Shown here piece after piece: positions 28-51,800 of a DNA stretch of 64,000 nt. Location: assembly GCA_016788905.1 (NCBI GenBank), contig JAEURZ010000012.1:1-64000 (forward strand). Reading direction: 5' to 3'. A program made the position numbers and the translations under genes. The number at the start of each line of letters is the position of its first letter. The first letter of the stretch is position 1. This DNA comes from Elusimicrobiota bacterium. Lineage in GTDB: Bacteria > Elusimicrobiota > Elusimicrobia > FEN-1173. The notes beneath the pieces are model-generated. The model did no database searches and was not told the DNA's origin. It worked only from the letters and a program-made list of their open reading frames with translations.

Positions 28-76
28 TGTTACCCATGTACCCGGTCTAAAGTGTTACCTATCCCCCGGGTTGCAC
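28..76. repeat. Tandem terminal repeat of an insertion sequence entering from the left edge
   Basis: Two adjacent units of about 25 nt begin TGTTACCCATGTACCCGGT and TGTTACCTATCCCCCGGG. Repeats built on TGTTACC-CCGG like these are, from memory, found at the ends of some IS21/IS481-type insertion sequences; this is inference because the transposase lies outside the window. The stop codon of the neighbouring minus-strand gene (30-32) falls inside the first unit, so the element appears to have cut off the 3' end of that gene. Confidence 0.5.
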
Positions 77-1514
77 AGAGAGGGAATGTTAGCGAAGGAA
101 AACCTCCCCTTATCCGCAGCTTCTCAGCACCATCTCCCACGGAGGGGAGCTGGAATCCCCTTTTTTTCTCCGTCGTAAACTTTAGCGGTCTCAAGTGACA
201 CGAATACTCTTCCCATTCGGAAGGAATGAGGGTAAATTCCACTAACTTCCGGGTCAAAAACCCTTGGCGGGAAAGGGCCAAGAGATCCCGTTCCTCCTCC
301 GAGTGAGCCAAATCAAAGGTAATTTTTTTCTCCGCAACACCAATTTCTTCTATCAAGCGTTCGACTTGAATCCCATCGGAGAGGAGAACGTAGCGCACAT
401 AGGTATCCAGGACTGGGTAATGGGAGAGATTTATTCCCTTCTTCTGACAAACCGAGGTTAAATGGCGGTAAAACACGGCATAGCGAACCTGGCCAGAGCG
501 GTAGGCAATGCTTTCAGAGATGAGCGATTGGGATTCTTCGCTTGTGAGCAGAGCGGCCAGTTTTCCTATTAACGCGGCGCGTTCCCGCTCCACCTCTTTA
601 ATGTTTAGGGATCGCTCCATGTCCAAGGCCACATTAAACGCCTTGATTTCCGGAAACTCTTTTTCTTTTGCCAAATGATCTTGGAGGAGTTGCACATGGT
701 CCCCAAGGGGCACCTTTCCGGATCGGTACTCCCCTATCTTTTGGTCAAGGGCCCATAGGGAGGGAGAAAAAACCCGCTGTTTCTGCTCTTTAACAGCGCG
801 TTCGAAGCTGTGCAACTTGTCAACAATCGCCTCTCGTCCCACGAGAGAATCACGGTATGCTTGCACATTGGCGTCATAATGAACCGGATCTTCGATGCCA
901 AGGATGCGGGGTAATTTCCCCTGAAAGGTGAGAGCTCCATGAATCGGTCCAGAAATTTTGTTTTTTTGGAGAAGAAATTCCGCCGTTTTATCTATTGGAA
1001 TCCGGTCCGGATATTCCACAAAGGGTTGAAGATCAATGTCCCCTGTGGCCCCTTCCAGGGCCAACAGATCAATGAGCCCCGCCTCCATCAAAGCGCGCAC
1101 CGTTTCTCGAATATTCCATTGGGCTTCCGGATTGGCGTGCACATCTTGAATATGAATGACCAGAGGCCCGTGACGGGTTCGCCCTTCAGGAAAAGAGACT
1201 TTGCGAACCATCCCATGAGCAGAAGAAAGGGTGGCCAGGATCTTTTCATAACCTTTTAAAAAATCTTTGGGGACAGAAGCAGCCAGGGAGGAGGAAATCA
1301 CCGCCGAATCAACAGTTCCCTTGGAATACCGGGAAGCCAATCCGCTCATCCCTTGGGATTCGGGCGCTGAAGGAAGGGACGCAAGGAGAGTGGTTCCAGA
1401 AGGCCGAGCCGCTCGCCGTCGTTCCACCCAAAAACTATTTCCCGGTTGATAAGCAAAAAGACACTGACTGGCCATACTGAAAAGAGCCACAAGAGTAGAA
1501 AGTTTAGTGATCAC
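30..1514 (-). CDS. Truncated paralogue of the giant-protein N-terminus (Tiki/ChaN-like domain)
   Basis: The protein starts with a hydrophobic signal segment (ITKLSTLVALFSMASQCLFA), followed by a SFWVERRRAA motif that recurs as SFWSSRRNAA in the 4909-residue giant. Then comes a region with IHIQDVHANPEAQ and LLALEGA that aligns with both giant proteins and resembles the conserved His and Glu positions of the ChaN/Tiki superfamily. The paralogues carry a later AGGFH motif that is missing here: similarity stops near the PSEWEEY string, and the last 50 or so residues are encoded by repeat-like DNA and the insertion sequence end. I chose GTG at 1514 because a -10 hexamer TATACT ends 6 nt upstream and the result is a clean signal peptide. 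In-frame ATG at 1547 and TTG at 1565 lie inside the promoter box. The gene is probably a disrupted remnant; whether it still makes a protein is unknown. Confidence 0.6.
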   Translation of the reverse strand: MITKLSTLVALFSMASQCLFAYQPGNSFWVERRRAARPSGTTLLASLPSAPESQGMSGLASRYSKGTVDSAVISSSLAASVPKDFLKGYEKILATLSSAHGMVRKVSFPEGRTRHGPLVIHIQDVHANPEAQWNIRETVRALMEAGLIDLLALEGATGDIDLQPFVEYPDRIPIDKTAEFLLQKNKISGPIHGALTFQGKLPRILGIEDPVHYDANVQAYRDSLVGREAIVDKLHSFERAVKEQKQRVFSPSLWALDQKIGEYRSGKVPLGDHVQLLQDHLAKEKEFPEIKAFNVALDMERSLNIKEVERERAALIGKLAALLTSEESQSLISESIAYRSGQVRYAVFYRHLTSVCQKKGINLSHYPVLDTYVRYVLLSDGIQVERLIEEIGVAEKKITFDLAHSEEERDLLALSRQGFLTRKLVEFTLIPSEWEEYSCHLRPLKFTTEKKRGFQLPSVGDGAEKLRIRGGFPSLTFPLCATRGIGNTLDRVHG

Positions 1515-1520
1515 CCAATC

Positions 1521-1565
1521 AGTATAACTATCCCCTCGAAAGACCATCTTAAGAGCTTGTAACAA
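1521..1565 (-). promoter_or_regulatory. Giant-gene-type promoter: 18-bp box plus -10
   Basis: Read on the minus strand: TTGTTACAA-GC-TCTTAAG (1565 to 1548), exactly 21 nt, then TATACT (1526 to 1521). The same box and the same 21-nt spacing precede the genes ending at 25849 and starting at 48858. No good -35 hexamer lies at normal spacing. The box is centred near -42 relative to the predicted transcription start, where class II activators bind. The predicted start falls at the GTG at 1514, which would make the mRNA leaderless. Confidence 0.65.
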
Positions 1566-1575
1566 TCTTGTGAAT

Positions 1576-1600
1576 TAATGTGAATGTGAATGTGAATGTG
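1576..1600. repeat. Short tandem repeat of TGAATG units
   Basis: Four consecutive near-identical 6-nt units (TGAATG/TTAATG type) lie directly against the left end of the transposase element. Such a run can vary in copy number by replication slippage. Confidence 0.6.
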
Positions 1601-2635: not shown

Positions 2636-2649
2636 AGAATCACCTGAGC

Positions 2650-6314: not shown

Positions 6315-6685
6315 TTCTCCATTCCCCTTGGACACCCCTTTCCTACCCAAGTCATCCTGGGAGCCTCCCAAGGAAGCAGTAAAAACCTCGGAGGAGGAAG
6401 AGGTAATAATAGTTTATAGCCAATAAAAGAAATTGCATAGCCCATTATTCGACAAATCAAGCCTTTTTTTTAACGCCTCTTCAGCCCTTTGAAACTGTTT
6501 CCCTCGCCCGCTGGCGGGAGAGGGGAGGGAGAGGGAATGTTGTTGACAAAAGTATTGCGGGCCGGTCCCAAATCGGAGGGACAAAGTGTTCCCCTTCCCG
6601 TAGACCAAAAACCTGGGGCTCAGCAGAGAAATTTCATCACGAGTTTTGAGTGTTAGCTAACATTCACAATCACTAGCGACAATAA
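6315..6685. other. Intergenic region with one REP-like element
   Basis: This stretch between the helicase start and the end of the transglutaminase gene holds the repeat at 6478-6540 and otherwise no convincing gene. A 64-codon open frame at 6414-6608 on the minus strand runs through the repeat and has no coding character. Confidence 0.6.
6478..6540. repeat. REP-like palindromic element, type B
   Basis: The core GCCCGCTGGCGGGAGAGGGG forms a short G+C hairpin. It is preceded by TCTTCAGCC...TTTGAA and followed by GAGAGGGAATGTTG. The same order of blocks occurs at 58877-58945, and the central hairpin is related to the copies at 26031 and 36240. Confidence 0.65.
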
Positions 6686-11119: not shown

Positions 11120-14100
11120 TTACGCCGCTCTTTTCACAGCCCTTTGTGCCTTTAAGGATTCCGTAAACGAGGCGCTCACTTGGCACATGAGTCCACCGCT
11201 CAAAGCAAGGATCAATGAAACAATTCGCTCGTCCATCCCCGTGTAATCCCAAGAGACCCCTGGAATATCCAAAGCAAAAATACTGACGGCCCCATCAAAA
11301 CCCAATTTTTCAATTTCAGTTTTAGCCGAAACAATGTTCTGATCGGAACCCTGTGCCTTTTCCCCCGAAATAACTCCAAAGGATAATGGGCGTCGTTTCA
11401 AATGTTCCAAATTCCCTCTAACTTTTTTTGACAAGAGGGCTTCCAAATTGGCCATGACATCTTCCTGCCGATAACTTTCCCCCTGGGGATCGATAACAGC
11501 AAACCCAATCTTTTTTCCAGATTTAATCCAATCTTCAGCCCGTTCATCCTCCTGACCCAATCGACGTTCCAGTTGGTCAATAAAGTCCAATTGTGTCAAA
11601 TCTTCCGGAGTCAGTTCTCCCCGTTTCCCTTGGGCCATGGCCGGAGAAAGATGAATCAGCATGTCTTCGTTTTTACCAAACGCTTCGGAGAGCGCCGAAT
11701 GACGATCCCGTAAGCCCCACGCCTGAGAGCGAACCCGATTGAACGCCTCTAATCCCTGTTGAACAGGAGAAGCATCCAAATCAAAGGATTCTTGGTCCAC
11801 CGATAGAGTGGCCAGAAACAAGGCAAAATCCCACCCTTGATAAAGACGCCTCACCCGAGAAACCTCTTCCTCGTCGTGCCCCAACCGACGATCCCCCTCA
11901 AAAAGACTTCCCCCCATCGCCATGAGGAGCCCAATCGCTTCTCCTGAAATCGGGGTTCCCCTCTGGGTCCCCTGTAAGATTCGATTGGCAAAAACAGCCC
12001 GCGCTCTTTCTAAAGAGACCTTATTCGACTGCAACAGATGGGAAAGAGCCATGACGAGGGGACCAGGTTGGAAGGCCTCGGGAGAATTGTGGCTATCCGT
12101 CACCACTTTCTCCAACGCGGGTCCAACTTTTCCATTGGTTTGTTTGGCGCCTTCCAATAACCCTGCCGTAAGGTTGGACAAACGATTTTTTCTCTCTTTT
12201 AGGGAACGTTGAACTCCCTCAACCTCATCTGGCAAAAGGATAAGATCCATGAGCGCCGGTCCCGGAGTCAATGGAAATAAATCAGCCAAAGCCGATTCCG
12301 TGGCGGCACGAACGGGATCGTGACGCGGGACGACTCGTAAGGGCAAAGAGAGACCCGTAACTCCATCGTATATGGCCCTTTGAATTCGCCTGATTTCACT
12401 CGCAGAGATCCCCTGCTCAAACAACGCGCGAACACCCGCCTCACCCAGCCCTTCGCGTACCATCCGCTCCTGAGACACGCCGGACTCAAAGGCAAGCCCC
12501 GCAAGAAGGACCGAATACAACATGGTATGACGATATCCAGCAAATTGCACAGCGGCCTTGTCTTTATTTCGCATGGTAACCGTAGAATCCATGGCAGTCC
12601 AAAGTTGGGCCTTCTGCAAACGAATCAAAACACCAAAAACCCCACCCGATTTTGAGCGAGAAACGAGGATTCCACTTGTCCGCAGATTCCCTTTTCGGGG
12701 CGCTTCGTTTAAACCAAAAAGGACTCGGACATTTTCTTCTGTTAGCCGGGCATCGCCAATTTCCTTCAAAACAGTGGAAAGAATTTCTTGAAAGGGATTG
12801 ACAGGTTCCACCGCTTTCAAAGCCGCCAAATAAACTCTTCTTATAACTGAGAGAAGGTAAGGCTCAGGCATTTCCAATAAAGATTCTTCTTCCGACCGAA
12901 CGGCCTTTCCCTCGACACGAAGCGGATACCCTTCAACTCTTTTCGTTGTTTGAGTTTCTTGAGCCTCTGTCATTTTCAAGAGAGAACTGAACAAATCATG
13001 GGAACCGAACAATCCGGTGGCACTCTTGGTCCAATCCCCATAGGCACTAACAACAACCAACCCATGTAAAGCCCTTTCAATTTCAGCTTGAATTAGTTTG
13101 ACTTCCTCTGGCCTTTTCTCAGGTTCATCCACTGTAATTTTAAATTGCCGAACAACTTTTTTCCCCATTTCAGAAATAACATTCAATCCTTCATTGATGG
13201 GTTTAGGATTCTGAACCACCTTGGGTCCTTTTCCCAATTCACCGGAATTCCCATATCTTTCTAATCGGGCATGTAAATCCACTAAGACGAAGGCGGCCTC
13301 CATAAGAAATCGAATTCGCTGTGTAGCAAGGAAGAGGGCATTACGGTTTTCATCCTCCCTTGATTGAACATAGTTTCCAAGCAGGAACAACTTATTTCGA
13401 ACAACGTCCAAATCATTAACGCTGAGTCCCTGGGACAACAGATCCCGAACAAATTCTTGCCCCATACGATAGGCGTCCTCTTTGTTCGATGCCTCATTGT
13501 TTAATCGGTCCGCCAGTTGTCGAATCCGACCATTAATTTGGGCATCGCTCATCATCCGTGTTGAAGCGCGCCTCACGGACCGTCGCCCAAAAACACCAAG
13601 CCCCCCAAGAACACCACCCATCATAAAGGCTAAACCCAGCGGGTCACCGACACCCCAACCCAGTGGATCAACGGTCGACACCACGGCCATGGCCTCCGCA
13701 GGGATGAACAACAAAGAGAGTCCAAGAAGAAAAACAGCACTGACGACAGCTAAAGGATCTCGGAAATTCCTCTCCCCGCCACGAGGGGCAACTTGTCCAA
13801 CAGAAGGAGTTTGCCCACCCCCACCCAGAACTTCCAAATCGACAATAGCAATCCCTTTAAATTCTCGTGACGGCAAGGGTATTGCGATATCCCAATCAAC
13901 CAAACGATCATGCGCAATGGTTAATAGACGATTCAGCCGGTCAACTTCGTCCCATTGTTCTGATTTATTACGGTTTCTTAATGTAAACATATCGAAAATT
14001 GACTGAACAAATTTAAGATTTTGATTGCTCCGGGAATCTCGCCCCCCCATCCAATACGCCGCACTTCCCACGTTGTTCCGTATTCTCTTAATGTCTTTCT

Positions 14101-17100
14101 TTTTCTCCACCAAAACATGAACCCAAGATTTTCCAGACGTGCGCGAATCCTTAATCGACCCAGTCAAATCACGCAGTTCCCCCACCAACCGCAACGTATC
14201 GGCCCACTGCTGAAGAGCCATCGCCTGCTGAAGAACCGGATCCGTGGAATTTTGATTTTCGTAACGCTTTAACCACAAGGCAACATAAAACGAGAAATTC
14301 TTAAGCCCATTGGAATCAAGGGGCTTCCCAAGACGTTTTTTAATTCCAGCCATTAACTCGGCCCCATCCACACGGGGTTTTCCGACATGGGAGAATAAGA
14401 AATCTGCTGCCGGATTTCGGGTGGGCTGGAAAACTCGAGAACCCGGCAATCGTGAAATCTTATTTTGAGACCGAGTTGTTTTTCGCCGTTTATTAACGAT
14501 GGGAGGAAGATCCTCTTCTACATTTTCCCCATAGAATATTTCCATTAAAGAATCCCAAGGTTTCGTTATACCCATAAGAACACCCAAACCAAGAAAGCTG
14601 GAACTCAGAGGAGACAACGACAAGCCCCCCGCCTGAGACCAAACCAGCCCCACCATTTCAGGGGAAGGGACAGTCCAAATCGCGCTGGCAAAGATCATTC
14701 CCAATCCGAGGAGTGCGACAAGGGAAATTGCACCACCAATGACACGCCTCAAATTGTCCGTGCGTAATTTCTCCATGTAATCACGATACGCTTTTTCATT
14801 TTTCGATTCCCTATCAATCCGATCAATAAGTTTCTGACATTCCGCAGTCAATTGCTCTGGCGTCGTCGACTCTTCTTCAAGAAGTTTTTTTATTCGCTTA
14901 ATCGCTTCTTTATCCTGTCCGACACGTCTCATATAGTATTTAACTTCAGGGATTCGGGAAGGGGCCACACTCAAACGAATCGGGTAGGACTCATTTAAAA
15001 TGTGTGCGATGGGCCAAAACACCCGGGACGTGGCCAGAGCACCGCACAATGTCACATCCATCGTTGACCGGGAATTCTTCAACGCCTTCAGAACTTTACT
15101 CATATGTGAAATAACGATGGGCTGGTTGGTGGAAAGCAATCCTCCCAGGGACTCCGCATTTCTTGTTTTCCCAAATATGAACTTTGTTAAATCCGTTGTT
15201 CCAAAATTCAAAAAGGCCGCTTTTTTTAGGAAACCAGGGTTGGTCGAAGCAGAGATCGCCCCGGCCGGGGTCTCAATCATATACCCCACAGGAGGGATAT
15301 CCCATGAGGAACGTTCCCCCACAGGGAGAGACTTCACCGCTTCTTGAATCAGTTTGTCAATATCCCTCGCTTCCTCGGGTGTCGACACAAGGGGGAAAAA
15401 CATCCGAATATTCTTCCGTGTTTGATAAACCCGAATAATGGCACGAATTTCTTGAAGGGCAACTTTTCGCCCATCATGATCATAAAGCAAATAATCAATT
15501 CCCGTTTGCCCCCCATCCCGTTGTTTCACCCCCGCCAACGGCTTGTCGTCTTTCCCTTGATTGTCAACGACACGAATATCAATTGTTTTTCCTTCCATCG
15601 CCCCCACCGCTTTTTCAAACTCCTCCACCAAATAGTTTTCAAAATGGGGGTTCGGTTTCCCCTCCTCATCTAAGGGTCTAAACTCTTCGTTATCAAACAA
15701 AAATTCCGTACGAATCAACCCCACACCCGCGCCCCCTAAAGAAATCACATCTTTAACCTGATGGGGATCGTCAGGGCTGGCCAAAATCGGGACAGACACC
15801 GCTTCATGACGCTCTTCAAAATAAACCCGCTCTTTGGCCATGAGTTCGTGATGAAATCGTTCCAATTCACTAATTCTCTGGATCGAAGGATTAATTTCAA
15901 CCTGCCCACTGGCTCCGTTCACAGCGATCACGACACCGGAAGGAATAACCTCCGCGAGGGAACGATCCCCCACCTTATCGGACTGGAAACCCGTAACGCA
16001 GGGGATACCGTAAGAAATGGCCACAATAGAAACATGGGACCCGATGTTCCCTTTCCGTGAAACGATTCCAACGATTCGAACGCCTCGGGAGATTAATTTG
16101 ATTAAATCCAAAGGCGTTGGAATTTCTTCAGCAATTAAGACAACCTTGTCTGCTTCCGTATCGTAAGGCGATGACGAAAGCCCATCGATCAGATCCGAGA
16201 CAATATCTCCAACACGGAGACCTTGGAGATGAAAGGTGTCCTGGACAAAAAGAAGCGCGGATTCAACGCTCCACCCCTCACGGATTCGATCAACAACTTG
16301 AATATTGAAATTCTTTAAAGTGTCCCCATCCATTGTATGTGGGCTAAATGATTTTTTTCCCCACGCCTCATTAAAGCGACTGACTTCCGTTTCAATTTCA
16401 CCCGAAGGCACCCGCTCATGTGTTTCAGCCATAACGGACAAAATCAATGTTTTTTCTTGATTCCACATTTCTTTCAACTTCTCTTCCATATCCGGCTCAA
16501 TCTCGATCCCTTTAAGTTTCAGTCTTAATGCGCCGAATGCCGACTGCTTACGGCTTTTAATGAGATCTCCAATTTCATTCTCGAGATCCTTGAGGACCAT
16601 TTCATCCACCCCAGCTAATTCAAGTAACTGTTGATGCTGTTCAATTTGCTCCGCGTTAGCACCCTCGGGAAGAGGCGTGTTTTTAAGTCGTTCCACACGT
16701 TCTTGCACCCGCCCAATGGCACGGAGCAACAATTCCCTTTCACGTTTAATAGCCCTTTCAAGATCTTGGTCACTCAAACCAAGGTGTTCCAAAGAATGGG
16801 TCTCCGCCATATGGTTCAACAAATCTTTCTTAAACGATTGGATTTCGGCCTTCAAATGGCTGTCTGCCGTTCCACCCAAACCATCGAGGACATCCACAAT
16901 AGCGGCTTGGGCGTTCACTTTTGATTTTTCAATCTTGTCCAATCCCAGAGCCAAGGTCTTCAAATCTTTTATCGTTTCATACCCCGACACCACTGAATAA
17001 GCCTCTCTGAGTCGCGCTTTTTCTTTCCCGACTTTATTAGCAATAAGTGCTTCCGAATCCCCCGGATTCTGAAGGGAGTAACTCACATAGCGCACAACCT

Positions 17101-20100
17101 CCCCATCCGACACCAATGATTTAAAATGGGTTGCCAGACCGAATTCAATGACTTTGACACCGTTCGTCCCCCCCAAACCAACAAAATATTTGGACCTGTC
17201 CCTGCCGATTTTTTTAATCCCAAGCCCCATCAAAACCAATCCAAGGCCCCCTCCCGCCAAAGCCCCCCCTTCTTGCAAAATCCCTATGCCTGTCCCAAAG
17301 CCAGACAAACTCTCCGCCCCCAGCGCGTCGATTGGAAATCCCAAGAGCACAGCCATAAGGGCGAGCCCCAATACCCATCGCTTCCCATGGATGAGGTTAC
17401 CCCATGCAGACCAAAAAGTCTTCCAAACACTTTCCAGAGGATTTTTCTTCCTTTTCACGCTCTTCGTTATTTCCTCATCTCCGAATACTTTTGAAACCCC
17501 ATTTTTGTGAATAGTCATCCACACCAAAACACTGGCCACCACCATAAAAACAATTCCAAAACCAAGTAAAGGGTCGAGAACCACTGGAACGACATTTCCA
17601 TACATCCCACCCAAAAGAAACGCCGCTGAATACAAATTACTTGGGGATTCCGGCGACTTGAGAACACCAATTCCTTTCCCCTCAGCCAGCGGATCTGCCA
17701 CTCCATTCACGATTTCGGTTGATTCGATTGATAAATCTCCTTGAACAGCATCCAATTCCTTTCGGACCAGAGAGGAATGCTCGTTCCCTTCAGCATCCAT
17801 ATCCATGAGACGTTCATAGGCTGTTTCCGTAAGGTCAACAATGAATTGAATTGAAGGGCCGGAATCTTCTGTCGAAACAGAAAGGGAATTAATATTCCCT
17901 CCCAAAGAAGCCAGCCAGCGCGATAACGCCGCGGTGAGAGAGGTTAAATCCAAAGATTCAGTGGGTCTTCCTTCGGGAAATTCCACTTCTAATTTAACCT
18001 GAAGGTCCCGTTTAGAGACATGCCCTCCTCTCAAGGGGATTTGTTTAAGTGCCGAATTAATCGAGTCCAAATTTTCACGATTCCCAGCGACAAAAACTGC
18101 GATTTTGCGACCTCGTGAAGAAGATGCCCTTACTAATTTCCCACCATTATCAACAATAATTTTCATCACTCGATTAAAAAGACCAGGGCGATCCTTTGAA
18201 TCAATAAAAAATTTAGATCCTTGGTTTTTATCCTGGGAAGTCACAATTGACCCTTCGTACATCTGATATTGAAATTGCGATTTCTGCTCTTGATTAAAAA
18301 CTCCAATCGTAACCAACAAATCCAAAAGGTCTCCAATTTCGTACGCAACAAAGTTCCGCCCCCCCGTTGAAACAACAAGGCTCTCCACGAAAGAAGTAAT
18401 TATCTCACGCGCTTTAATAAGTTCAGGAGGCTCATACCCTCTGTGTTTTTCAGGGGCAGGGTCGGAAGAAAATCGGCCAAAAACGGGGATAATAATTTTG
18501 GGATCCCCTACAACCAACGTTTTAAATTCATCCAATGATAAGTTGAGATGGTTCGCATAGGATTCCAATTCAGCATTTATTCCATCGGAGATTTGTGACA
18601 CATAATCTTTTTGTTTCAACATTGGTTGGTTCCACATATGTAATAGAAATAGAGGATTTAAGATTCCAGGACTCTCTCTACTTACTAAACGAGATAAAGA
18701 ATTGGTCAACCATTGAAAGGCCAAATCAAATTTTTCTTTATGCTTTCTCCTTTCTTCTGGGGAAGTCAGGTCATGCGCCGTCTTTTTTTCGGAACTTCGC
18801 AAACGAAGGATGGCGCGACTCGCTTCAGGGAGAGCAATGGGGGTTTTCCACTCAATGGTTGCTCCCAGGGGAATAGGATTCTCTAGTGAAGCGCTTAATA
18901 AATTCCCGTTGCCCCCAACGAATGGCGTGCTCGCGAAACATTCATTATTCTCCCATTTGATCAATCCACTCATCGCGGCCAAATCAATAAAGGTGGCCGC
19001 CTTCTCACCGCGATTAGGAAGACTCACATATTTGACAGCTGAACCGGTTTTTACCTGAACCACATTTTCCTGGTCCCATTCCTGGGCCAACATCGAAATA
19101 TTTTCCCGCCAATTTTCTTGCAAAACATAGGAATTTGGCGTCAAAACAATTTCCTTTCCATCCGAAAAGATATTTCGGAAGAAATCCGATGCCTTATAAA
19201 TCCAGTAGGGTTTCGTTTTGTTTCCGCCTACCCCAGCCATTCGTTCCAACAAACGGTAGCGGCGATGGGAAAAGAACTGCAACTCTAACGGAACCTCAAT
19301 CTCCTCAGACCCCTCGTTTATCCTGATCAACACCGTCACATAGGTCGCTCCACCCATCACACGGTCACGAACATCGTAATCTTCTATGTTGGTCGTTTTC
19401 AATTCGGAATTAATTTTCTCAACAACCTCGGCGACATCAGCGCCCCACTCCCTTAGTCCTTTGGAATTGGGGAGAACAATTTTAGCCGTAAATAGATCTT
19501 GTACATGATCGAGAGAATAGTCTCGACCCTTCCGTTTTTCTCGCATCAGTTTACTCATTAACGAAAAGATATCTTTAGCGCGAACAGTGACAAAAGCCTC
19601 TGGTTTTGAAAGCGTAAAACCATCAAAACGAGGAAGGACCTCATAATCTTTCCCAAGAACCGTTTTGAGTTTCCCTAAGATCTTTTCCGCAATCTTATTT
19701 CTCCCCATTTCATCGGTTCCCATTCTTTTGTCATAACTCGCCTTCGTGAGGTAATAATCCTGGGGTCGCCATAATTCCATTCCCGCATCAGTTAAATCGA
19801 TGGCCATAGTCGACCATCCCAATCTCGCGGCCAATGTGCCAAACCCCGCCACACTTTTTAAGACAATGGTTTGTTCTTCTTCCGTCAGCTCAACAATCGT
19901 TTTGCTCCGCGCGTAGGCCTCCCTCTTCTCCCGCAACATTCCTTGAACCACACTTCTGGAAAAGTAAAAAACATACTCCATAAGATCAGCGTCACCCGGA
20001 TAAGATCGTTCGTCCGCCCCTTTTCGTTTCTTTCGATCCTCCTTCCTTCTCGAACGATTATCCCTTGCATTGGACACAGGTCGTAATTCTTGCACGACAG

Positions 20101-23100
20101 CTTTCATAAAAAGTTCGGGTTGATCGGGCACCCAACTTCCCTTTGCGTCCTGTCGAACAAAAGGAAGCCCATCGACAATGCGAAGAAATCTCCGGCTCGC
20201 CTCCTCTCCCCATCGTTGCTGAATCGACTGGGCAAATTCTTCTTGAATACCGTGCCAATCGAAAGAGGCATCGCTTGTTTTTTTAATGAGCGCCTGCAAT
20301 TCTGGGGAGGGCGCTGACGTTCGGTTTGGCTCAGCGATCGAACCTCGCTCCGTGATATCCCTTATTTCGTTGGGATCTGTCCCTAAGCTCAACCGATAGG
20401 ATTCCGGAACAACAAAGTTGTAAAGAGCGTGGGAGAAATAGCCGGTAAGACCGGCGTTCAGTAAATTCAGGCTTTCAAGAGGAAGTGATTGGGGCGTAAA
20501 GAAAAGGGTGGGATCCAATCCCCCCACGAAAACCGCAAACGTATTGATAGACAAAGCAACAAGAAACCGAATCGTGAACTGCTTAATGGTCTGTTGAGAC
20601 TCAATGGGGCGACCAAAATCGTCTTTCGGGACAACGAGGGAACTCGGGGGACCCCGGGTCATAACAGGTTTGCCATGGATGAGAGCCATCAGAAAGGATC
20701 CCGCAATAACGCCGACCCAAGGCCCCATAACGGAAGCCACCAAAAGGGATAAACCCACCGAAAGGTACGGAAGGAAAGGCAATTCTGCCAGGGGGACCAG
20801 GAGCGACTGAACATACCGCCCAGAAACGATTTGCCTGGCCCGGGCTGGAGATACCTTCATCACCCGCTCCACCCCTTTGGCCATCATCGAGAAGATGAAA
20901 CTCCCCATGCGAATGGGGGCCCGCGCGTTCAAAACAAGCTTGGCCGCCCTGGCATTTTCAGCCTGAGCCTTACGGAAAACCAATTCCATTTTTCTAAATC
21001 GTTCTTTGGCGCGATCGCTTTTGACATCCATGGAGAGCAGGAAAACGTCTTCGCTGGGTTGAACAACAAAGAACTCCCGGAGTTTTTCTAAGAGTATTTC
21101 TCCCCCATAACGCCGGCCCAAATAGGTGACGACCGCATTTTGCATGGCCGCCACATCTTCAAGGGACAACCGGGGCCCAACGCGATCACTGGGATTGGTG
21201 TCTTCAGTCCTATTCACTCTTAAAAAGGCAGCCCAATCGCCCAAATTAAAATCGTAAACAACGTGAAAGGGTTGTAACTTCTTTTTTTCGTCCGGGTGTT
21301 GTGTCGCTAATTTATTCCGCATGGTGTCTGCCGCTGAAACCAACTGATCTATAGAAGGAGGGCCCCTGGAAAGAGAATAGAACGTGTCCACCGCACGACC
21401 GAGTTTCGTTGGCTCAGAACCAAGGGAGGTCACCATTTCATGGTGAGCTTTAATAGCGTCGTTCCCTTTCCCGTGTTGATCGGATCCCTGCCAGGAATGG
21501 AACGCTCGGGATTGAATACGTTTTTCCAATCCACGCACCCACCGTTCCGGAACAAACCGAAACAGGACGGAGGGTAAATGACGGAACACCCATTCGGATG
21601 TCGCGTTCACCCCCCACCGAAGTCCTTGTTTCCGATATTGGGCTACCTCATAAATCAAAACATGGCCGCTCACTTCTTTTTTTAACCCTTTCCAAAATTC
21701 TTCGGCTTTAGGAACCTTAAAAGCGTCGTGAGACGGGTCTGAATGCTCTTGCATGGTCTGTTTAATATTATCTTCCTTCACTGTGCCAGGCCGTTCAAAG
21801 GAATAGACTTCAGCCAGATCATTCGCGATAAAAACTTGTTTTCGTCCCCGTCCCTTGGCCACCGCCAGCATATCCTCCGCCAAACGATCTGCCCACATCA
21901 TCACCACCGGAACCATTTCAGGGCGTAGGGTTCCGTCCTCGGCGAGTAATTGCAATTTCGGATATTCATCCGTTAACCTTCGAACCACATCCCCTAAACG
22001 CACCCCCCCCATGGAATAGGTAAACAACCCCAACCCCGGCCGGGTGGTGTCCAACCGTTCCCAGGATCCGAGATTATCCAAGCGATTCTCAATCGAATTT
22101 AAATTTTCTCCCGGATAATCTCGTTTCACAGCAATCGTTACGCCATTCCCGTGGCGCACAATGCTCATCCTCCCCCAGGGCCCTATCTCACTTTTAAACG
22201 CATTGGCGATTTTTTCAAGATAAGCCGTTTCTTCTTCCTTCCCATTTGCAAATTGAGGTCCTTCCAGAGAGTAGAACGCAAACTGGTCGCGCATGACATC
22301 GTTTTCAGCATCAATCACTTCCGTCAAAGCGGCTTCGATAGTCTTTCCACCATTTTTTAAGTCTCGCTCATTGAAAATCATTTTGTAATCGTCACCACCA
22401 GGGCCCTTTCTGATTTCTCCTTGCACCTGGGTGATACCCTCTTTAATCCAATACCGTTGCCACCAATAGGGCGAAAAGCCTTCGGAGGCACTCACCACAT
22501 CAACGGACCGAGAATCTCCTAAAACCCCCACCGAATGTTTATTGGTTAAATCGTTAACCGATCCTCCCAAGTCATGATCCGCCACAACCCGAAACACTTC
22601 ATCCAATGCCTCAATACTTTTTCCACCCCATTTTTCAACAAGTTCTTGCGTTTCTTCTTCTCCCGTTAAGGGTTTCCCAAGAGGATCCTGATTAATGGAA
22701 GGGTGCTCGGGTAAATTCTCAAATGTTTTTGAACTGAGAGGAGAAGCGTCAGGAAGGATGTCGAGGACTTCAAGGATCGCGTGGGTCAGGATGGCTCCAA
22801 CGAGACCTAAAACAGGAGAAAGTGAAACCAACACCCAAAGCGTCCCATCCACGCCAACTTGAAATCCAACAAACAGAACCACGGCCGAAACAGAAACCGC
22901 CACAAGGTTCAGGAGGAACGTTCCGCCCATGCGGACCCGTCGCTGGAGGTCGGTTTGGTCACTTCCATGATCTAAAACAAATTTCAATTGGGGTCCGACC
23001 ATGGACCAGATGAAAGATCCCGCCACAGCCAACCCCACCCCCTGTACGATTGTCAGCGAGAACACAATGGCAAGAATTCCCAGCCCCACCCCAGCCAGCG

Positions 23101-25849
23101 CGGCCGGCACACGTCCTTCCCATACAGAACCCCAATTCCAAAGGACTCCGATTTCTTCTATAAGCGATGTTCCGAAAATATCATGGCGTCCCAAAAAGTT
23201 TTTCAGCGTGTTCTCAGTCGAATTTTTCCATCTCTCCAACAACTCATACGTTGAGGGTTTTTGAAGTATGTATTTCTTTAGATGGTTATTCATTTTCCGA
23301 TGATCGGCCAACCATTGATTAACTATTTCTTTCGTTAATCGACCTTGAGCATCGAAAGACAATTCACCAACGTGAACGGTCATCGGTCCACGAACATGTT
23401 CAGGAATATCACGAAGAATTGTTTTTTCTGTGATTCCTTGAATCACAAGCTCTCGCGTTAACCCTTCCCGCGGAATCTCTTGTTCCAGTTTTTCCATGGC
23501 CAACATGATTTGGCTTTCTATCGACACAATACTCATGATCATCGGCGCGAGAGGTTTCGCCGTCGTATCCAACGCGCGGGTGGCGGGCTGGGGAGGGCTG
23601 ACCGCATCCGCTGTCTGACCGAATCCCACTCTCCGAATAGTTCCAAGACCGATGAAACCCAACAACCACTCCCACCCCAGTTCAAAACGCGTGGACAACC
23701 GGTTGGGCCACGCCCGCATGGAAGAAAAAGAATCCCTTATTTGGACTTTCAACGGTCTAGACTTAGGAACCGGCCTCACCGAAACATTTCCATACCCAGG
23801 AATATCAGCCTGATACTCAGAAAGCAATCCGGACTGCGGGTCCGTTGGAATAAAGAATTTATTCCCCCCAGAGAAGGACACATTCACACCCGTAGGGACA
23901 GGGACAGCCTTCGCCTGTATCTGTTCAGGAAAGTGAGCCGGTGTCGATAGGGGCACCTGTGTTGACTGGACACTCAACCCCAAAACAATCGCCACAAGTA
24001 ACGTCGCGAGTTTCGATGCCAATCCAAATCCTTTTCCATCCCCAGCGTCCGAGATATTGCCAATCGCCACCATCCGCGGCGTGGGGATATTGATGGTTTC
24101 CCCCGCAAAGAGCTTTTCCAAAGGCGCGGGATCCCGCGCTAAAAGTTCCAGGGTGCGGTGGCCGTCCGGCAGGGTGCCGTTCACTTTCGGGGTGACGACG
24201 GCGTAGGAAATATCTTTTTGACGGAGCAGTTGGGTCAGGCCTTCCGTGTGAAACCCGCCAGCCACCAAAATGGCGGTGTTGCTTTTTTCCGCGACCATTT
24301 TGGCCATGAGGTTTTGGACCAGGGCCCCGTTCCGACCCAACGCCTGAAGGCAAAATTCCTCAAAGGGCTTCAGAGTCTCCGGCGCAGGGGGGCTTAAAGC
24401 TTCCGGCAATCCCGATTCCTGGGCCAACGACTGAATGACCGTCCCCACACGTTGAATTTCCGTTTCGTGGGTGATGTGGTACAACCAGTCGGCGGGAGTG
24501 TATCCGTGCTGAACCAACCGTTCAAGGAGAGCCAAATGGCGCGCCGCCAAGACGATGCGCCGTTCGTCGTTCGTCACAGCCAAACCGTCCTGCACCGACC
24601 GTTCCAACGTGCTCAGTTCCGTCAACAGGTCATTGCGATTAATCTTCTCGGCCAACAACACGTATCGAACATACGCGCTCAGCTGGCTAAACTCTTCCAA
24701 ATTGATTCCGCTCTGGGAACATAGCTTACGCAGGAACCGGTAGTAGTCTCCATAGGAAATCCGACCCAACCGGTACATCGCACTCCGGTCCACCAGTTGA
24801 GTAAGGCTCGATTTCGAAAGCCCGCTGACAAGTCGCTCCAAAAGGACGGCCCGCTCGGATTCAATCCGCTTAAAATCCAGTGAATCTTCCCAGTGAAGGG
24901 CGTCCTGCAACAAAACAAGGTTAGGGAAATGGGCCCGGGACAGCATTGAAGAGCGCAAAAGATAGCGTGTGTACACACCCAGGGGTTCCTTGCGAGAGTG
25001 ATACCCGGTCAGATGACGGTCAAATTCAAGAAGTTTTGGCGAAAGCCGCTGGTCTTTTACATCCGCTAAAATCCCCCGGGCTTTTCGGAGAAACGCCTCA
25101 ACCTCGGGCCGATTTGCAGCGGAATTCTTCACCGCCGTCACGTTGGCCTTGTAAGCGTCCATGTCTTCCACGCCCCACAACAACGGCATGCGCTTGGCCG
25201 TGATCCCCGCGAATTCCGGTCCGCCTAAATACCCTTCCTCCATAAAATGTTCAGCCACCGCTTTGGTGATATCCGCGTCGGGAAACGATCGAAAGGCTTC
25301 CGTGGCGAAAGCCCCCTGGGCCCCTTCCAACCCCACCAGGTTAACGCCTCGCTCATCTTGCAACGCCTCAACGAGACCGGCAATGTTCCTTTGGGCTTCG
25401 GTCGAATCATGAAGATCTTGGATTTGGATAACGAGAGGCGCGCCAGGCCGTTTTGACAAAAACACATCCCGCATGTTTCCGTACGGCGCAATGACATCGG
25501 CCAACCAACGGGGGAGATCCCTTTCAAAAACAGGAATTTTCCCCCCAACCAAATGTTCTTTGGGAGAAACTGGCATGACGGAACTTTCAACCGGCCCATG
25601 GAAATCCAGCCGAACCCCACCGGGAAGTTGGGCCAAAATGAGTGCGTCGTTGGGGCTCGGGAGGGAAGGGGCTGAGGCGTTTGTTTTCCCCACTTTCTGA
25701 GCGGCGTTACGGCGCGAAGACCAAAAACTGGCCTCCGCCGCGTGACAAAAAACCACGTTGGTGGCCCCATAAACAAAGGCCACAAACCCCGCCAGAAATC
25801 GCCGAAAAAGGCGGTTGGGCTCAATTAAATGAAAGTGATTATGTTTCAT
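11120..25849 (-). CDS. Giant 4909-residue multidomain protein: Tiki/ChaN-like, GGDEF-like, RelA/SpoT-like, PTS enzyme I-like
   Basis: One uninterrupted frame. Approximate order: signal or anchor segment (10-35) and SFWSSRRNAA motif; Tiki/ChaN-like domain (130-565; IQIQDLHDST, LVGLEGA, VAGGFHTEG); membrane segments near 615, 915 and 1000; degenerate GGDEF (1085-1340; DHDLGGSVND, GPGGDDYKMIF, ADRLAEDMLAVAKGRGRKQVF); membrane segments near 1700; RelA/SpoT-synthetase-like region (1990-2220; LAARLGW, VRAKDIFSLMSKLM, LELQFFS); TGS-like part near 2286; ACT-like repeats near 2553 and 2640-2700; membrane segments near 2760 and 2830; PTS enzyme I-like region (2870-3680) keeping phospho-His H3272, R3380 and C3602; more membrane segments near 3700 and 4080; an unrecognised C-terminal 800 residues. 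Whether any catalytic domain is active is unknown. ATG at 25849 lies 7 nt after a -10 (TAACAT), so the transcript is probably leaderless. Confidence 0.85.
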   Translation of the reverse strand: MKHNHFHLIEPNRLFRRFLAGFVAFVYGATNVVFCHAAEASFWSSRRNAAQKVGKTNASAPSLPSPNDALILAQLPGGVRLDFHGPVESSVMPVSPKEHLVGGKIPVFERDLPRWLADVIAPYGNMRDVFLSKRPGAPLVIQIQDLHDSTEAQRNIAGLVEALQDERGVNLVGLEGAQGAFATEAFRSFPDADITKAVAEHFMEEGYLGGPEFAGITAKRMPLLWGVEDMDAYKANVTAVKNSAANRPEVEAFLRKARGILADVKDQRLSPKLLEFDRHLTGYHSRKEPLGVYTRYLLRSSMLSRAHFPNLVLLQDALHWEDSLDFKRIESERAVLLERLVSGLSKSSLTQLVDRSAMYRLGRISYGDYYRFLRKLCSQSGINLEEFSQLSAYVRYVLLAEKINRNDLLTELSTLERSVQDGLAVTNDERRIVLAARHLALLERLVQHGYTPADWLYHITHETEIQRVGTVIQSLAQESGLPEALSPPAPETLKPFEEFCLQALGRNGALVQNLMAKMVAEKSNTAILVAGGFHTEGLTQLLRQKDISYAVVTPKVNGTLPDGHRTLELLARDPAPLEKLFAGETINIPTPRMVAIGNISDAGDGKGFGLASKLATLLVAIVLGLSVQSTQVPLSTPAHFPEQIQAKAVPVPTGVNVSFSGGNKFFIPTDPQSGLLSEYQADIPGYGNVSVRPVPKSRPLKVQIRDSFSSMRAWPNRLSTRFELGWEWLLGFIGLGTIRRVGFGQTADAVSPPQPATRALDTTAKPLAPMIMSIVSIESQIMLAMEKLEQEIPREGLTRELVIQGITEKTILRDIPEHVRGPMTVHVGELSFDAQGRLTKEIVNQWLADHRKMNNHLKKYILQKPSTYELLERWKNSTENTLKNFLGRHDIFGTSLIEEIGVLWNWGSVWEGRVPAALAGVGLGILAIVFSLTIVQGVGLAVAGSFIWSMVGPQLKFVLDHGSDQTDLQRRVRMGGTFLLNLVAVSVSAVVLFVGFQVGVDGTLWVLVSLSPVLGLVGAILTHAILEVLDILPDASPLSSKTFENLPEHPSINQDPLGKPLTGEEETQELVEKWGGKSIEALDEVFRVVADHDLGGSVNDLTNKHSVGVLGDSRSVDVVSASEGFSPYWWQRYWIKEGITQVQGEIRKGPGGDDYKMIFNERDLKNGGKTIEAALTEVIDAENDVMRDQFAFYSLEGPQFANGKEEETAYLEKIANAFKSEIGPWGRMSIVRHGNGVTIAVKRDYPGENLNSIENRLDNLGSWERLDTTRPGLGLFTYSMGGVRLGDVVRRLTDEYPKLQLLAEDGTLRPEMVPVVMMWADRLAEDMLAVAKGRGRKQVFIANDLAEVYSFERPGTVKEDNIKQTMQEHSDPSHDAFKVPKAEEFWKGLKKEVSGHVLIYEVAQYRKQGLRWGVNATSEWVFRHLPSVLFRFVPERWVRGLEKRIQSRAFHSWQGSDQHGKGNDAIKAHHEMVTSLGSEPTKLGRAVDTFYSLSRGPPSIDQLVSAADTMRNKLATQHPDEKKKLQPFHVVYDFNLGDWAAFLRVNRTEDTNPSDRVGPRLSLEDVAAMQNAVVTYLGRRYGGEILLEKLREFFVVQPSEDVFLLSMDVKSDRAKERFRKMELVFRKAQAENARAAKLVLNARAPIRMGSFIFSMMAKGVERVMKVSPARARQIVSGRYVQSLLVPLAELPFLPYLSVGLSLLVASVMGPWVGVIAGSFLMALIHGKPVMTRGPPSSLVVPKDDFGRPIESQQTIKQFTIRFLVALSINTFAVFVGGLDPTLFFTPQSLPLESLNLLNAGLTGYFSHALYNFVVPESYRLSLGTDPNEIRDITERGSIAEPNRTSAPSPELQALIKKTSDASFDWHGIQEEFAQSIQQRWGEEASRRFLRIVDGLPFVRQDAKGSWVPDQPELFMKAVVQELRPVSNARDNRSRRKEDRKKRKGADERSYPGDADLMEYVFYFSRSVVQGMLREKREAYARSKTIVELTEEEQTIVLKSVAGFGTLAARLGWSTMAIDLTDAGMELWRPQDYYLTKASYDKRMGTDEMGRNKIAEKILGKLKTVLGKDYEVLPRFDGFTLSKPEAFVTVRAKDIFSLMSKLMREKRKGRDYSLDHVQDLFTAKIVLPNSKGLREWGADVAEVVEKINSELKTTNIEDYDVRDRVMGGATYVTVLIRINEGSEEIEVPLELQFFSHRRYRLLERMAGVGGNKTKPYWIYKASDFFRNIFSDGKEIVLTPNSYVLQENWRENISMLAQEWDQENVVQVKTGSAVKYVSLPNRGEKAATFIDLAAMSGLIKWENNECFASTPFVGGNGNLLSASLENPIPLGATIEWKTPIALPEASRAILRLRSSEKKTAHDLTSPEERRKHKEKFDLAFQWLTNSLSRLVSRESPGILNPLFLLHMWNQPMLKQKDYVSQISDGINAELESYANHLNLSLDEFKTLVVGDPKIIIPVFGRFSSDPAPEKHRGYEPPELIKAREIITSFVESLVVSTGGRNFVAYEIGDLLDLLVTIGVFNQEQKSQFQYQMYEGSIVTSQDKNQGSKFFIDSKDRPGLFNRVMKIIVDNGGKLVRASSSRGRKIAVFVAGNRENLDSINSALKQIPLRGGHVSKRDLQVKLEVEFPEGRPTESLDLTSLTAALSRWLASLGGNINSLSVSTEDSGPSIQFIVDLTETAYERLMDMDAEGNEHSSLVRKELDAVQGDLSIESTEIVNGVADPLAEGKGIGVLKSPESPSNLYSAAFLLGGMYGNVVPVVLDPLLGFGIVFMVVASVLVWMTIHKNGVSKVFGDEEITKSVKRKKNPLESVWKTFWSAWGNLIHGKRWVLGLALMAVLLGFPIDALGAESLSGFGTGIGILQEGGALAGGGLGLVLMGLGIKKIGRDRSKYFVGLGGTNGVKVIEFGLATHFKSLVSDGEVVRYVSYSLQNPGDSEALIANKVGKEKARLREAYSVVSGYETIKDLKTLALGLDKIEKSKVNAQAAIVDVLDGLGGTADSHLKAEIQSFKKDLLNHMAETHSLEHLGLSDQDLERAIKRERELLLRAIGRVQERVERLKNTPLPEGANAEQIEQHQQLLELAGVDEMVLKDLENEIGDLIKSRKQSAFGALRLKLKGIEIEPDMEEKLKEMWNQEKTLILSVMAETHERVPSGEIETEVSRFNEAWGKKSFSPHTMDGDTLKNFNIQVVDRIREGWSVESALLFVQDTFHLQGLRVGDIVSDLIDGLSSSPYDTEADKVVLIAEEIPTPLDLIKLISRGVRIVGIVSRKGNIGSHVSIVAISYGIPCVTGFQSDKVGDRSLAEVIPSGVVIAVNGASGQVEINPSIQRISELERFHHELMAKERVYFEERHEAVSVPILASPDDPHQVKDVISLGGAGVGLIRTEFLFDNEEFRPLDEEGKPNPHFENYLVEEFEKAVGAMEGKTIDIRVVDNQGKDDKPLAGVKQRDGGQTGIDYLLYDHDGRKVALQEIRAIIRVYQTRKNIRMFFPLVSTPEEARDIDKLIQEAVKSLPVGERSSWDIPPVGYMIETPAGAISASTNPGFLKKAAFLNFGTTDLTKFIFGKTRNAESLGGLLSTNQPIVISHMSKVLKALKNSRSTMDVTLCGALATSRVFWPIAHILNESYPIRLSVAPSRIPEVKYYMRRVGQDKEAIKRIKKLLEEESTTPEQLTAECQKLIDRIDRESKNEKAYRDYMEKLRTDNLRRVIGGAISLVALLGLGMIFASAIWTVPSPEMVGLVWSQAGGLSLSPLSSSFLGLGVLMGITKPWDSLMEIFYGENVEEDLPPIVNKRRKTTRSQNKISRLPGSRVFQPTRNPAADFLFSHVGKPRVDGAELMAGIKKRLGKPLDSNGLKNFSFYVALWLKRYENQNSTDPVLQQAMALQQWADTLRLVGELRDLTGSIKDSRTSGKSWVHVLVEKKKDIKRIRNNVGSAAYWMGGRDSRSNQNLKFVQSIFDMFTLRNRNKSEQWDEVDRLNRLLTIAHDRLVDWDIAIPLPSREFKGIAIVDLEVLGGGGQTPSVGQVAPRGGERNFRDPLAVVSAVFLLGLSLLFIPAEAMAVVSTVDPLGWGVGDPLGLAFMMGGVLGGLGVFGRRSVRRASTRMMSDAQINGRIRQLADRLNNEASNKEDAYRMGQEFVRDLLSQGLSVNDLDVVRNKLFLLGNYVQSREDENRNALFLATQRIRFLMEAAFVLVDLHARLERYGNSGELGKGPKVVQNPKPINEGLNVISEMGKKVVRQFKITVDEPEKRPEEVKLIQAEIERALHGLVVVSAYGDWTKSATGLFGSHDLFSSLLKMTEAQETQTTKRVEGYPLRVEGKAVRSEEESLLEMPEPYLLSVIRRVYLAALKAVEPVNPFQEILSTVLKEIGDARLTEENVRVLFGLNEAPRKGNLRTSGILVSRSKSGGVFGVLIRLQKAQLWTAMDSTVTMRNKDKAAVQFAGYRHTMLYSVLLAGLAFESGVSQERMVREGLGEAGVRALFEQGISASEIRRIQRAIYDGVTGLSLPLRVVPRHDPVRAATESALADLFPLTPGPALMDLILLPDEVEGVQRSLKERKNRLSNLTAGLLEGAKQTNGKVGPALEKVVTDSHNSPEAFQPGPLVMALSHLLQSNKVSLERARAVFANRILQGTQRGTPISGEAIGLLMAMGGSLFEGDRRLGHDEEEVSRVRRLYQGWDFALFLATLSVDQESFDLDASPVQQGLEAFNRVRSQAWGLRDRHSALSEAFGKNEDMLIHLSPAMAQGKRGELTPEDLTQLDFIDQLERRLGQEDERAEDWIKSGKKIGFAVIDPQGESYRQEDVMANLEALLSKKVRGNLEHLKRRPLSFGVISGEKAQGSDQNIVSAKTEIEKLGFDGAVSIFALDIPGVSWDYTGMDERIVSLILALSGGLMCQVSASFTESLKAQRAVKRAA

Positions 25850-48857: not shown

Positions 48858-51800
48858 ATGCCCATGTTCGGTTTCCCTTTATCTTGCGATCGCTTGATGC
48901 CCACCAAGAAGGTCATCGCTACGGTGACGGCATTGGCTTGTTTTTTTTCCTTTATTACCTCCCCGTTTTTAGAAGCCTCATCTTTAAATCATGCATCCGT
49001 AGGGAACAGTCGTCAGCACTCCGAGAATTCGCTCCCTCAGGTCACGCCCCAAGATCAAGGGGGTAGGATCGGCCCATCGTCACTTCTACGGGAATCCTTA
49101 TGGTCATTGGTCGGTCGGCAGGGCTGGCGCGTGGAGGGACGGTTACTCCCGTTCATTACCCAAATAGAAGACAACCATGGGGACACACCTTCTCAGTTGG
49201 CGGCGGTTCACCTGTTGGACAAGGTGGATTCAGAGCGCGGAAATGAACCCCTTCTCATTGGGGTTGAAGGGGCTTGGGACATCTTAGACATATCACCGCT
49301 TGCCGCTCTCCCACCCGGAGAGTGGCGAAATCGCTGGTTCAATCGTCTTCTCTGGCGGGGCGACCTAACGGGGGAGGAGTATTGGATGTTGATGCGTTCC
49401 CCGACCCGTGTCACTCTCATAGGCATTGATGACCCCGTGTTGCATCAACAGCACAGTGAAGCTCGAAGGATTGTCGAAACCTCCCGAAAGGAAACAGAAT
49501 TATTCCTGCGCGACCTCGCCACCCGCGTGGATCGTTTGAAAAAACATCTTTTCCCACCCGCCTGGGTGATACTGGACAAGGCTTTTTCCGATTACGACGA
49601 AGGATCAATTTCAATTAACGAATTGTCTGTATCGATTCTCGAAAAAGTTTCGCCAACTTGGATGAATGAAAATACCCCCCACTTGTTTTATCTCGCCCAA
49701 ATCCACAAAAACCCCGTAGATCCCAAATCCGTTCAAAAAGAACTCAAAGACATGCTCTCATTTACGTTGACCCCCGCAGAATCCCAACAGCTTTTCTCCG
49801 GATCCCCGATGAAAAATCCCGATGTTTTTTTTAATAATATTTTCGCCATGGCAGACGCCCGCAAATTGACGCTCCCCCACACAAAGAAATACGCCCAGCA
49901 AAGTCTATGGAGCCGAGAGATCGAACCAATGGCCTTGTCAAAAGAAGTCAACGTTGCAAGGAGGTCCCTCTTTACTTCCTCCCCCTCCCATCCCGTAGCC
50001 TCAAAACTCGTTCAAATAAAGGAAACCCTTTTTCTCCTGCGAGGGATTGTCGCCCTCGGCCTCACGCCGGACGATTGGTTGCGATTTCAAACACAGAACG
50101 AATTCAATGACATTCAAAATCTTTCCGACTCAATAAGAGAGCTTGAATCCAACAAATGGTCTCGTGAACCACGAAGTCCTATCCCTTTCTCCTCCACGTA
50201 TGTGATCCAAAATGCCAAAAGATTTTACGAGCTTGCAAAATTAAGAGACCACGCCATGGCCGACAATTTAATTAAACAGGCCCGGCGAGTGGGGGCCACC
50301 CGTTCTGTGGTTATCGCTGGCGGATTCCACACCCCTGGGATGGTCCACCTGTTTCGCCAATGGGGCGCACCCTTTGAGGTCCTGTGCCCGATTCCTGAAC
50401 ACAAGGTCGAACCCACCCTCCGAGCCCTGGACGCTTTCCAACAACCCGAAACGAGGAACCGAATACTCCATGAGACCGCCACCCAATTACAGGCGGAAGA
50501 AAATGACGCGGTTCAACGCTGGATGAATAAATTGTCTTCCCAAAATCGACGCCATTTAAGAAAGGCGGGGTTTGGGGAACCCCAAGCTCTCTCCGTCTTT
50601 TGGACATCCCTTAAAAAAGACCTCACCCGTTGGGCCTATTTCCTCGCCCTCTTCTTACGCGAGCAATGGGACTTCTTTCAAACTCTTCACGGTTCCCAAG
50701 AAAAAACAGCCTGGGCGGTCCTGACAGCACCGATCCCTCCTGTAATGAACTTGATTCCCCCATCCATTCACCAAACCCCGGCTGAATACGCCCCCCCTCT
50801 CCCCCAACGAGAGTCAGGGGAAAAGATCGCGGAAGAATTTCAGTCATTAGTCCAACAATCCCGTTGGGTGGAAGCCGAAAATTTCCTTTGGCAGCTGTGG
50901 ACGGGCCATGGATCGGCCCGATTGATCGGCGAATCGTTCATGGCCCTCAACCTCACCGACAAGGAACCCCGACAGGCCAGAGACCTCGTGGCGAGTCACT
51001 TAAGCCCCCAGGCACTAGGTCTTTTGGGCCAAGGGCTCATGGACTATTTTCAAGACCGGGACTTAGAACGCCTTTACGAACGCCGAAAACTCAACCAGAC
51101 CCTATTAGATAACCTAAACGCCATTGAAAGTAACCGCGATAGTGCGATCCATGGTATTAAAACAACTCTTTCCCAAATCAATCAAAGCCTCCTGGATGAG
51201 GCGAACGGTATCCTTGGGGTCGATTCAGAGGGAACCCCTGGGTTCACCCTCATGGACCCCATGGATCCCGACACGGACGCCGTGGTAAGACAGGTCAAAA
51301 AAGATGGGGAAGAAACAACCTTCCTGGCGAATAAGATCAAGAATCTCATGGATCAATGGGATACGGAATCAAGTCCAGATCTTCTTCAAGAAACAAAAAA
51401 AATGGTCGGAAAAATCAAACTCCACTTTCAACCCACAATAAAAAAGATCCTTTTGCCCACAGCCACCGACCACTTCACGCCGGCGGGACAGACACGAGCC
51501 AAATTGTCCGCGTATCGGGAGTGGCTCCGTTTCACACAGTCAATGGAAGTCTCCCAACGGGAATTGGCCCGGCGGGCGTGGCGATCAGCGGAAACCCTCA
51601 GCCGCTCTATTGCCCAAGGGAAATTGGCGGATCCAACGGCCTATTCAACTCCGTTGGATCGGTCGGCCTTTGGAAAGATCGCTGTAAATCGGGTCGGTCT
51701 GGATCAAACACTATCGACCCTCCGCACCCAGGAAAGGCCGATCGTCGTGGTTTCCCTTCCGTACGAAGAAGCTAAAAATGACGTGATCCAAGACCTGGCG

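Follow-up and report, generated by a model that had tools for sequence, protein, structure and literature searches.

An uninterrupted open reading frame on the minus strand (11120..25849) of the window, by which we mean the whole stretch of 64,000 nucleotides analyzed here, encodes a single chain of 4,909 aa (4,909 codons), P0001. On the evidence of its sequence, P0001 is a membrane protein in which a conserved hydrolase-like head precedes relatives of three signaling enzymes. It is better viewed as an example of an extensive, modular family of giant proteins, for which we infer a function below. We document here the homologies of the modules, the residues that they have kept and lost, and the family together with its expansion. 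A 14.7-kb open frame with ordered motifs and relatives is far beyond chance; the genes adjoining it translate normally with table 11, and the source genome (G000; 2.51 Mb in 78 contigs) has a completeness of 99.85%.

A sequence-only reading of this DNA had proposed that one chain of 4,909 residues joins GGDEF-like, RelA/SpoT-like, and PTS enzyme I (EI)-like domains. The frame is genuine, and profiles, relatives, and fold searches uphold all three identities as homology; the motif residues that the reading singled out (GGDDY 1151 to 1155, RAKDIFSLMSK 2090 to 2100, H3272, R3380, and C3602) are all in place. As to function, it had offered either combined cyclic di-GMP, (p)ppGpp, and phosphotransfer activities or domains reused as binding or structural modules. 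The latter fits better, because P0001 is one of ~28 paralogs whose downstream modules vary widely. The combination of these three modules occurs in no other protein that we examined, and our literature search for it returned no match.

A giant family with a Tiki/ChaN-like head

The head domain of P0001 (aa 126 to 600; 24050..25474, minus strand) was delimited with a family profile, A1, and by its invariant residues. The profile matches the head at E = 1.9e-198, P0001 itself being in the profile, and H147, Q153, E175, E321, R506, G531, G532, and H534 (GGxH, 531 to 534) are present in all 48 to 51 members scored. An invariant N-terminal H and E, followed by R and GGxH, liken the head to the Tiki/TraB/ChaN superfamily, whose defining motif we take to be a conserved His, a Glu, and GxxH, all found here. 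The family's head differs in being ~470 aa long and in leading giants, whereas known Tiki/TraB/ChaN members are much smaller proteins. By profile, the assignment to Tiki/ChaN is weak: PF04187 (ChaN, Tiki superfamily) weakly matches four of six family members (best, 6.5e-4), P0001 not among them; the head of the paralog P0002 reaches 16.4 bits against a cut-off of 27.7; and no Tiki/ChaN chain is among the PDB matches of the head profile.

The head recurs in ~28 ORFs of G000, the frames of which sum to 71,250 codons, or 8.5% of the genome. It is present in 18 of the 41 genomes searched, and the relatives that have it yield 11 to 55 matches apiece, in frames of up to 13,472 codons. Head loci were collected with a degenerate DNA motif pattern, which matches almost only in Elusimicrobia/Endomicrobia assemblies; from these relatives, the host is taken to belong to Elusimicrobiota. 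Of the 109 pattern loci, 106 encode the head domain, including loci labeled Omnitrophota, Firestonebacteria, Auribacter, and FCPU426. A contig search with a 2,715-aa query gave no match.

Behind the head, family members vary, with Lon, SNF2 helicase, CofD, CAAX-protease-like, RelA/SpoT homolog (RSH), and EI modules all represented. The window itself holds P0002 (3,335 aa; 48858..58865, plus strand), in which the family head precedes Lon-type AAA+ and Lon protease modules, and a 511-aa paralog with the family head (30..1565, minus strand). A second nucleotide-binding (AAA/ABC-type) match lies near aa 2537 of P0002. Paralogs in G000 also show SNF2-type helicase with DUF488, CofD, DUF218, AAA_5, and M23-like matches; the former pair follows the family head in L194 (1466-13444, minus strand). 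On contig C16 of G017, a 6,542-aa giant (L032/L033) has the head, Rce1-like and GGDEF-like modules, and a stretch judged PP2C-like by eye only. Long stretches of the paralogs are without any Pfam match. The C-terminal domain of P0001 (aa 4490 to 4909; 11123..12382, minus strand) is common to P0001 and L263, the RSH-bearing giant of a relative. A single C-terminal domain for the whole family was rejected, sharing being confined to small groups; profile comparison of the C-terminal regions between groups gave nothing above 50% probability (with the parsing of the output unverified).

A constant head, many paralogs, and variable tails could, by analogy with the predation or adhesion proposed for giant proteins of Omnitrophota (PMC10066038), point to surface or contact effectors directed against neighboring cells or hosts. 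We consider this very unlikely: the members scanned contain no adhesin or toxin domains, though M23 peptidase matches occur in two, and the charge pattern described below would place the modules in the cytoplasm.

The palm, RSH, and EI modules

The first GGDEF-like palm domain (aa ~1060 to 1345; 21815..22672, minus strand) carries D1091xD1093, N1099, GGDD at 1151 to 1154, and AK at 1331 to 1332 followed by GR. Pfam GGDEF does not match P0001, and the GGDEF-like identity, weak from P0001 alone, is supported via homologs in other giants and by a PDB profile search. One homolog matches Pfam GGDEF at 0.0023, and a profile of four homologs found ten matches among 235 genomes, all in G000, G008, and G017, in frames of 1,047 to 13,472 codons; homologs of this domain occur only in the giants of two relatives. 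DxD, N, G-x-D, and AK..G are kept in nine aligned palm sequences, with D, D, N, G, and D invariant, and the signature reads GGDDY in P0001 (the final two positions D and Y) and GGDEF or GADE in the homologs. All seven PDB matches of the profile are GGDEF proteins, mostly diguanylate cyclases (best, 0.012).

A degenerate second palm/GGDEF-like domain (aa ~1385 to 1650; 20900..21697, minus strand), with RAFHxxQ-type and RGPP motifs, was recognized from the second stretches of 3ign and 5euh and from the fold search, and the region as a whole is probably a tandem palm pair. Structure prediction, proposed earlier as a check on the GGDEF part, gave palm-type folds (mean pLDDT, 63.7; mostly 70 to 90 in domain 1), but the best fold match is human soluble adenylyl cyclase (5.2e-4), with Cas10/Csm-type tandem palm proteins matching more weakly and unrelated proteins interspersed. 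P0001 thus resembles GGDEF diguanylate cyclases in its motif order (DxD, N, GGD[D/E], AK..GR) and differs from them in lying below Pfam detection, in being paired with a second, degenerate palm, and in this ranking of fold matches; the second palm and the ranking both weaken the case for a cyclic di-GMP function.

The RelA/SpoT synthetase-like core (aa 1984 to 2260; 19070..19900, minus strand) matches canonical RSH at RxKxxxS 2090 to 2096 (R2090/K2092/S2096), D2118, E2189xQ, and WxY 2216 to 2218. Weak for P0001 alone (TIGR00691 at only 0.055; a single-sequence PDB search at 0.01, with RSH chains ranked first), the identity is solid once relatives are included. A two-row RSH profile, in which the clearer row, L263 of G002, may drive part of the matches, has RelA/SpoT chains as 12 of its 12 best PDB matches (best, 3.3e-5) and, at E <= 0.01, has a match in 186 of the 235 class genomes searched; the matches in G008, G017, G033, and G039 fall in ORFs that PF04607 also detects. 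The RSH unit of L263 has HD_4 and ACT_4 matches, and a weak JAB-like match (0.059) was also seen in that frame (1461-6044, minus strand). An AlphaFold model of the P0001 region has a mean pLDDT of 47, with ~60 to 83 across much of the core. The fold matches RSH as the sequence-only reading had anticipated, the best 44 Foldseek matches being RSH enzymes (best, 5.5e-11), a result that is not fully independent because the alignment behind this low-confidence model contained canonical RSHs.

That reading had also placed a TGS/ACT region after the core, of which the ACT domain was recovered (aa 2549 to 2605; 18035..18205, minus strand; PF01842 at 1.7e-6 and 28.1 bits, above the cut-off of 27; SerB2 ACT in the fold search). 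The TGS domain was not: at the position where it would lie (aa ~2280 to 2440; 18530..19012, minus strand), there is no profile match and the model is mostly below a pLDDT of 40. A second ACT-like beta-alpha-beta unit may follow (aa ~2620 to 2720; 17690..17992, minus strand), judging by the secondary structure seen there in the model (pLDDT, ~55 to 65). With its synthetase core, ACT domain, and fold, the module resembles RelA/SpoT homologs; it differs from them in sitting inside a membrane giant and in its losses, the HD hydrolase motif being absent on alignment with canonical RSH and the guanine-binding NGYQSLH-type loop (GTP-loop motif) not being conserved in the three giant RSH modules aligned.

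The EI-like module (aa 3235 to 3643; 14921..16147, minus strand) is recognized by Pfam and NCBIfam, with PEP-utilizers_C (PF02896) at 2.4e-32 and PEP-utilizers (PF00391) at 2.1e-7, both above cut-off, and TIGR01417 at 3.5e-39 across 3224 to 3662 (score, 134.7; cut-off, 341.7), the last match starting at profile position 143. EI chains in the PDB match at 5.9e-25. Against the E. coli-type active site (H189, R296, R332, R358, E431, N454, D455, R465, and C502), seven of nine residues are kept (H3272, R3380, R3426, E3526, D3553, R3563, and C3602), so the claim that phospho-His, Arg, and Cys persist holds; the residues corresponding to R358 and N454 are replaced, and the full active site is lacking. 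P0001 therefore shares with EI a phospho-His swiveling domain and a PEP-binding barrel and differs in these two losses, in its place within a membrane chain, and in having no recognizable N-terminal helical domain for HPr docking, for which Pfam gives no match. EI modules are likewise present in giants of three relatives, and in G017 and G008 one chain carries two.

No stand-alone RelA/SpoT was found in G000, where PF04607 has no match, and PF04607 gives nothing above cut-off in four other genomes of its family. RSH modules lie in long frames of G000, G001 (L288), and G002; the L288 and G002 frames run off their contigs, with the heads out of view. One PF04607 match (E = 0.0137), in an 11,491-aa giant of G017, was judged to be chance because it lies within a coiled-coil-like stretch close to an M23 peptidase. 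P0001 might then be a working multifunctional enzyme that makes or senses cyclic di-GMP and (p)ppGpp, takes phosphate from PEP, and replaces the missing stand-alone RelA/SpoT, for its EI module retains the phospho-His, the Cys, and most PEP ligands, and its first palm retains the metal and GGD positions. We find this distinctly unlikely, given the loss of the HD motif and NGYQSLH-type loop, of two EI residues, and of the HPr-docking domain. G000 also has seven GGDEF matches of the ordinary kind, as well as an ordinary 598-aa PtsI-like ORF, which leaves the alarmone function as the only one that P0001 would have to supply. A related scenario, in which the alarmone enzyme and copies of further metabolic and signaling enzymes moved into Tiki-headed giants, a new class of modular membrane receptors that would each read several cytoplasmic signals, control a periplasmic hydrolase, and replace stand-alone RelA/SpoT, also strikes us as unlikely.

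Predicted membrane topology and a possible sensor or scaffold

Hydrophobicity locates, all on the minus strand, an N-terminal signal/anchor (aa 1 to 45; 25715..25849; core at 18 to 36 after an R/K-rich start), a transmembrane segment after the head (aa 609 to 627; 23969..24025), a transmembrane bundle (aa 917 to 1021; 22787..23101), two hairpins (aa 2739 to 2780 and 2826 to 2881; 17207..17635), and further hairpins at aa 3703 to 3761 (14567..14743) and 4033 to 4088 (13586..13753). A putative CPBP/Rce1-like membrane module (aa ~1680 to 1815; 20405..20812, minus strand; H1725, HxxxN at 1807 to 1811) is proposed from its motif pattern, which is common to P0001 and a relative's giant that passes PF02517; Pfam does not match this region of P0001. 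K or R occupies 0 of 88 positions in the hairpin loops and 33 of 240 in their flanks, by a heuristic on hydrophobicity and charge, with hairpin limits set by hand, rather than a trained predictor. Because K and R lie in the flanks and are missing from the loops, the positive-inside rule suggests that the signaling modules are cytoplasmic. The chain had been described as exported or membrane attached; its N-terminal hydrophobic signal and several hairpins agree with attachment, while export would, on the charge pattern, apply at most to the head.

Several hairpins resemble a signal sequence and then a tail anchor (for example, aa 4033 to 4051 and then EAMA), and the modules are self-contained, features that would suit a polyprotein cut into separate membrane-anchored proteins, with the hairpins as internal signal sequences or linkers. 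This seems highly improbable to us: an AxA signal-peptidase motif follows the first hairpin helix in 3 of 48 cases against a background of 6.2%, which is no enrichment, although this test is weak, as the N-terminal positive control (3 of 41) failed likewise. Processing by signal peptidase is thus weakly rejected.

We tentatively favor, with a little less than even confidence, a membrane-anchored sensor or scaffold built from enzyme-derived ligand-binding modules. On this view, the family of P0001 would consist of lineage-specific giants of the Elusimicrobiota inner membrane, and a signal sequence would place the Tiki/ChaN-like head, which is probably catalytic, in the periplasm. The chain would recross the membrane via the hydrophobic hairpins and hold the modules between them, in P0001 the tandem palm (GGDEF-type) pair, the RelA/SpoT synthetase-ACT unit, and the EI (phospho-His and PEP-binding) unit, in the cytoplasm. 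With active sites that may be sufficiently intact to hold guanine nucleotides, alarmone-like ligands, and PEP, these modules would relay cytoplasmic conditions to the head or to an assembly in the membrane. In support, H147, E175, R506, and GGxH of the head are invariant while the downstream modules differ, and the charge pattern would put the modules on the same side as their ligands. Between relatives, however, the modules are poorly conserved (about 20%), and this, together with a three-module set seen in no other protein examined, counts against a sensor or scaffold.

Alternatively, the downstream modules may be captured or duplicated housekeeping domains decayed to filler or spacers, leaving the head, and perhaps the membrane parts, to do the work. 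This is possible, if doubtful. Module sets differ by member and include such unlikely components as SNF2 helicase, DUF488, CofD, and Lon; many modules are barely recognizable amid the Pfam-blank stretches of the paralogs; and the HD and GTP-loop motifs are gone from the RSH modules. Yet the RSH, palm, and EI modules keep catalytic positions although their overall identity is about 20%, the order of CAAX-protease-like and RSH modules (motif based) is common to giants of two genera (P0001 and L288), and RSH occurs with the same C-terminal domain in P0001 and L263.

Related giants and other genes in the window

Elusimicrobiota are already noted for an abundance of huge proteins with no assigned role. 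Reports on these and on the giant ORFs of Omnitrophota stress size, adhesion, or predation (PMC11573180, PMC10066038, and PMC12057145). P0001 resembles the proteins they describe in coming from the same phylum or its neighbors and in its great length, many transmembrane segments, and few annotated domains; it differs in that we found no description of a Tiki/ChaN-headed family, nor of signaling-enzyme modules within one, in those reports or elsewhere in the literature searched. A shared head with conserved catalytic-type residues and changing enzyme-derived modules offers a handle on what much of these genomes does, and the apparent absence of stand-alone RelA/SpoT from this lineage, together with RSH modules in giants, allows one to test cleanly whether its stringent response has disappeared or has been relocated.

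Elsewhere in the window, P0003 (59094-63980, minus strand; 1,628 aa) has a HEMAH metalloprotease-like motif and no Pfam assignment, and neighboring ORFs at 2653-6371 (minus strand) have XPB/ERCC3-type helicase and Helicase_C_3 domains. A 786-aa acetolactate synthase ORF (36383-38740, minus strand) fuses the regulatory (ACT, ALS_ss_C) and catalytic (TPP) subunits.
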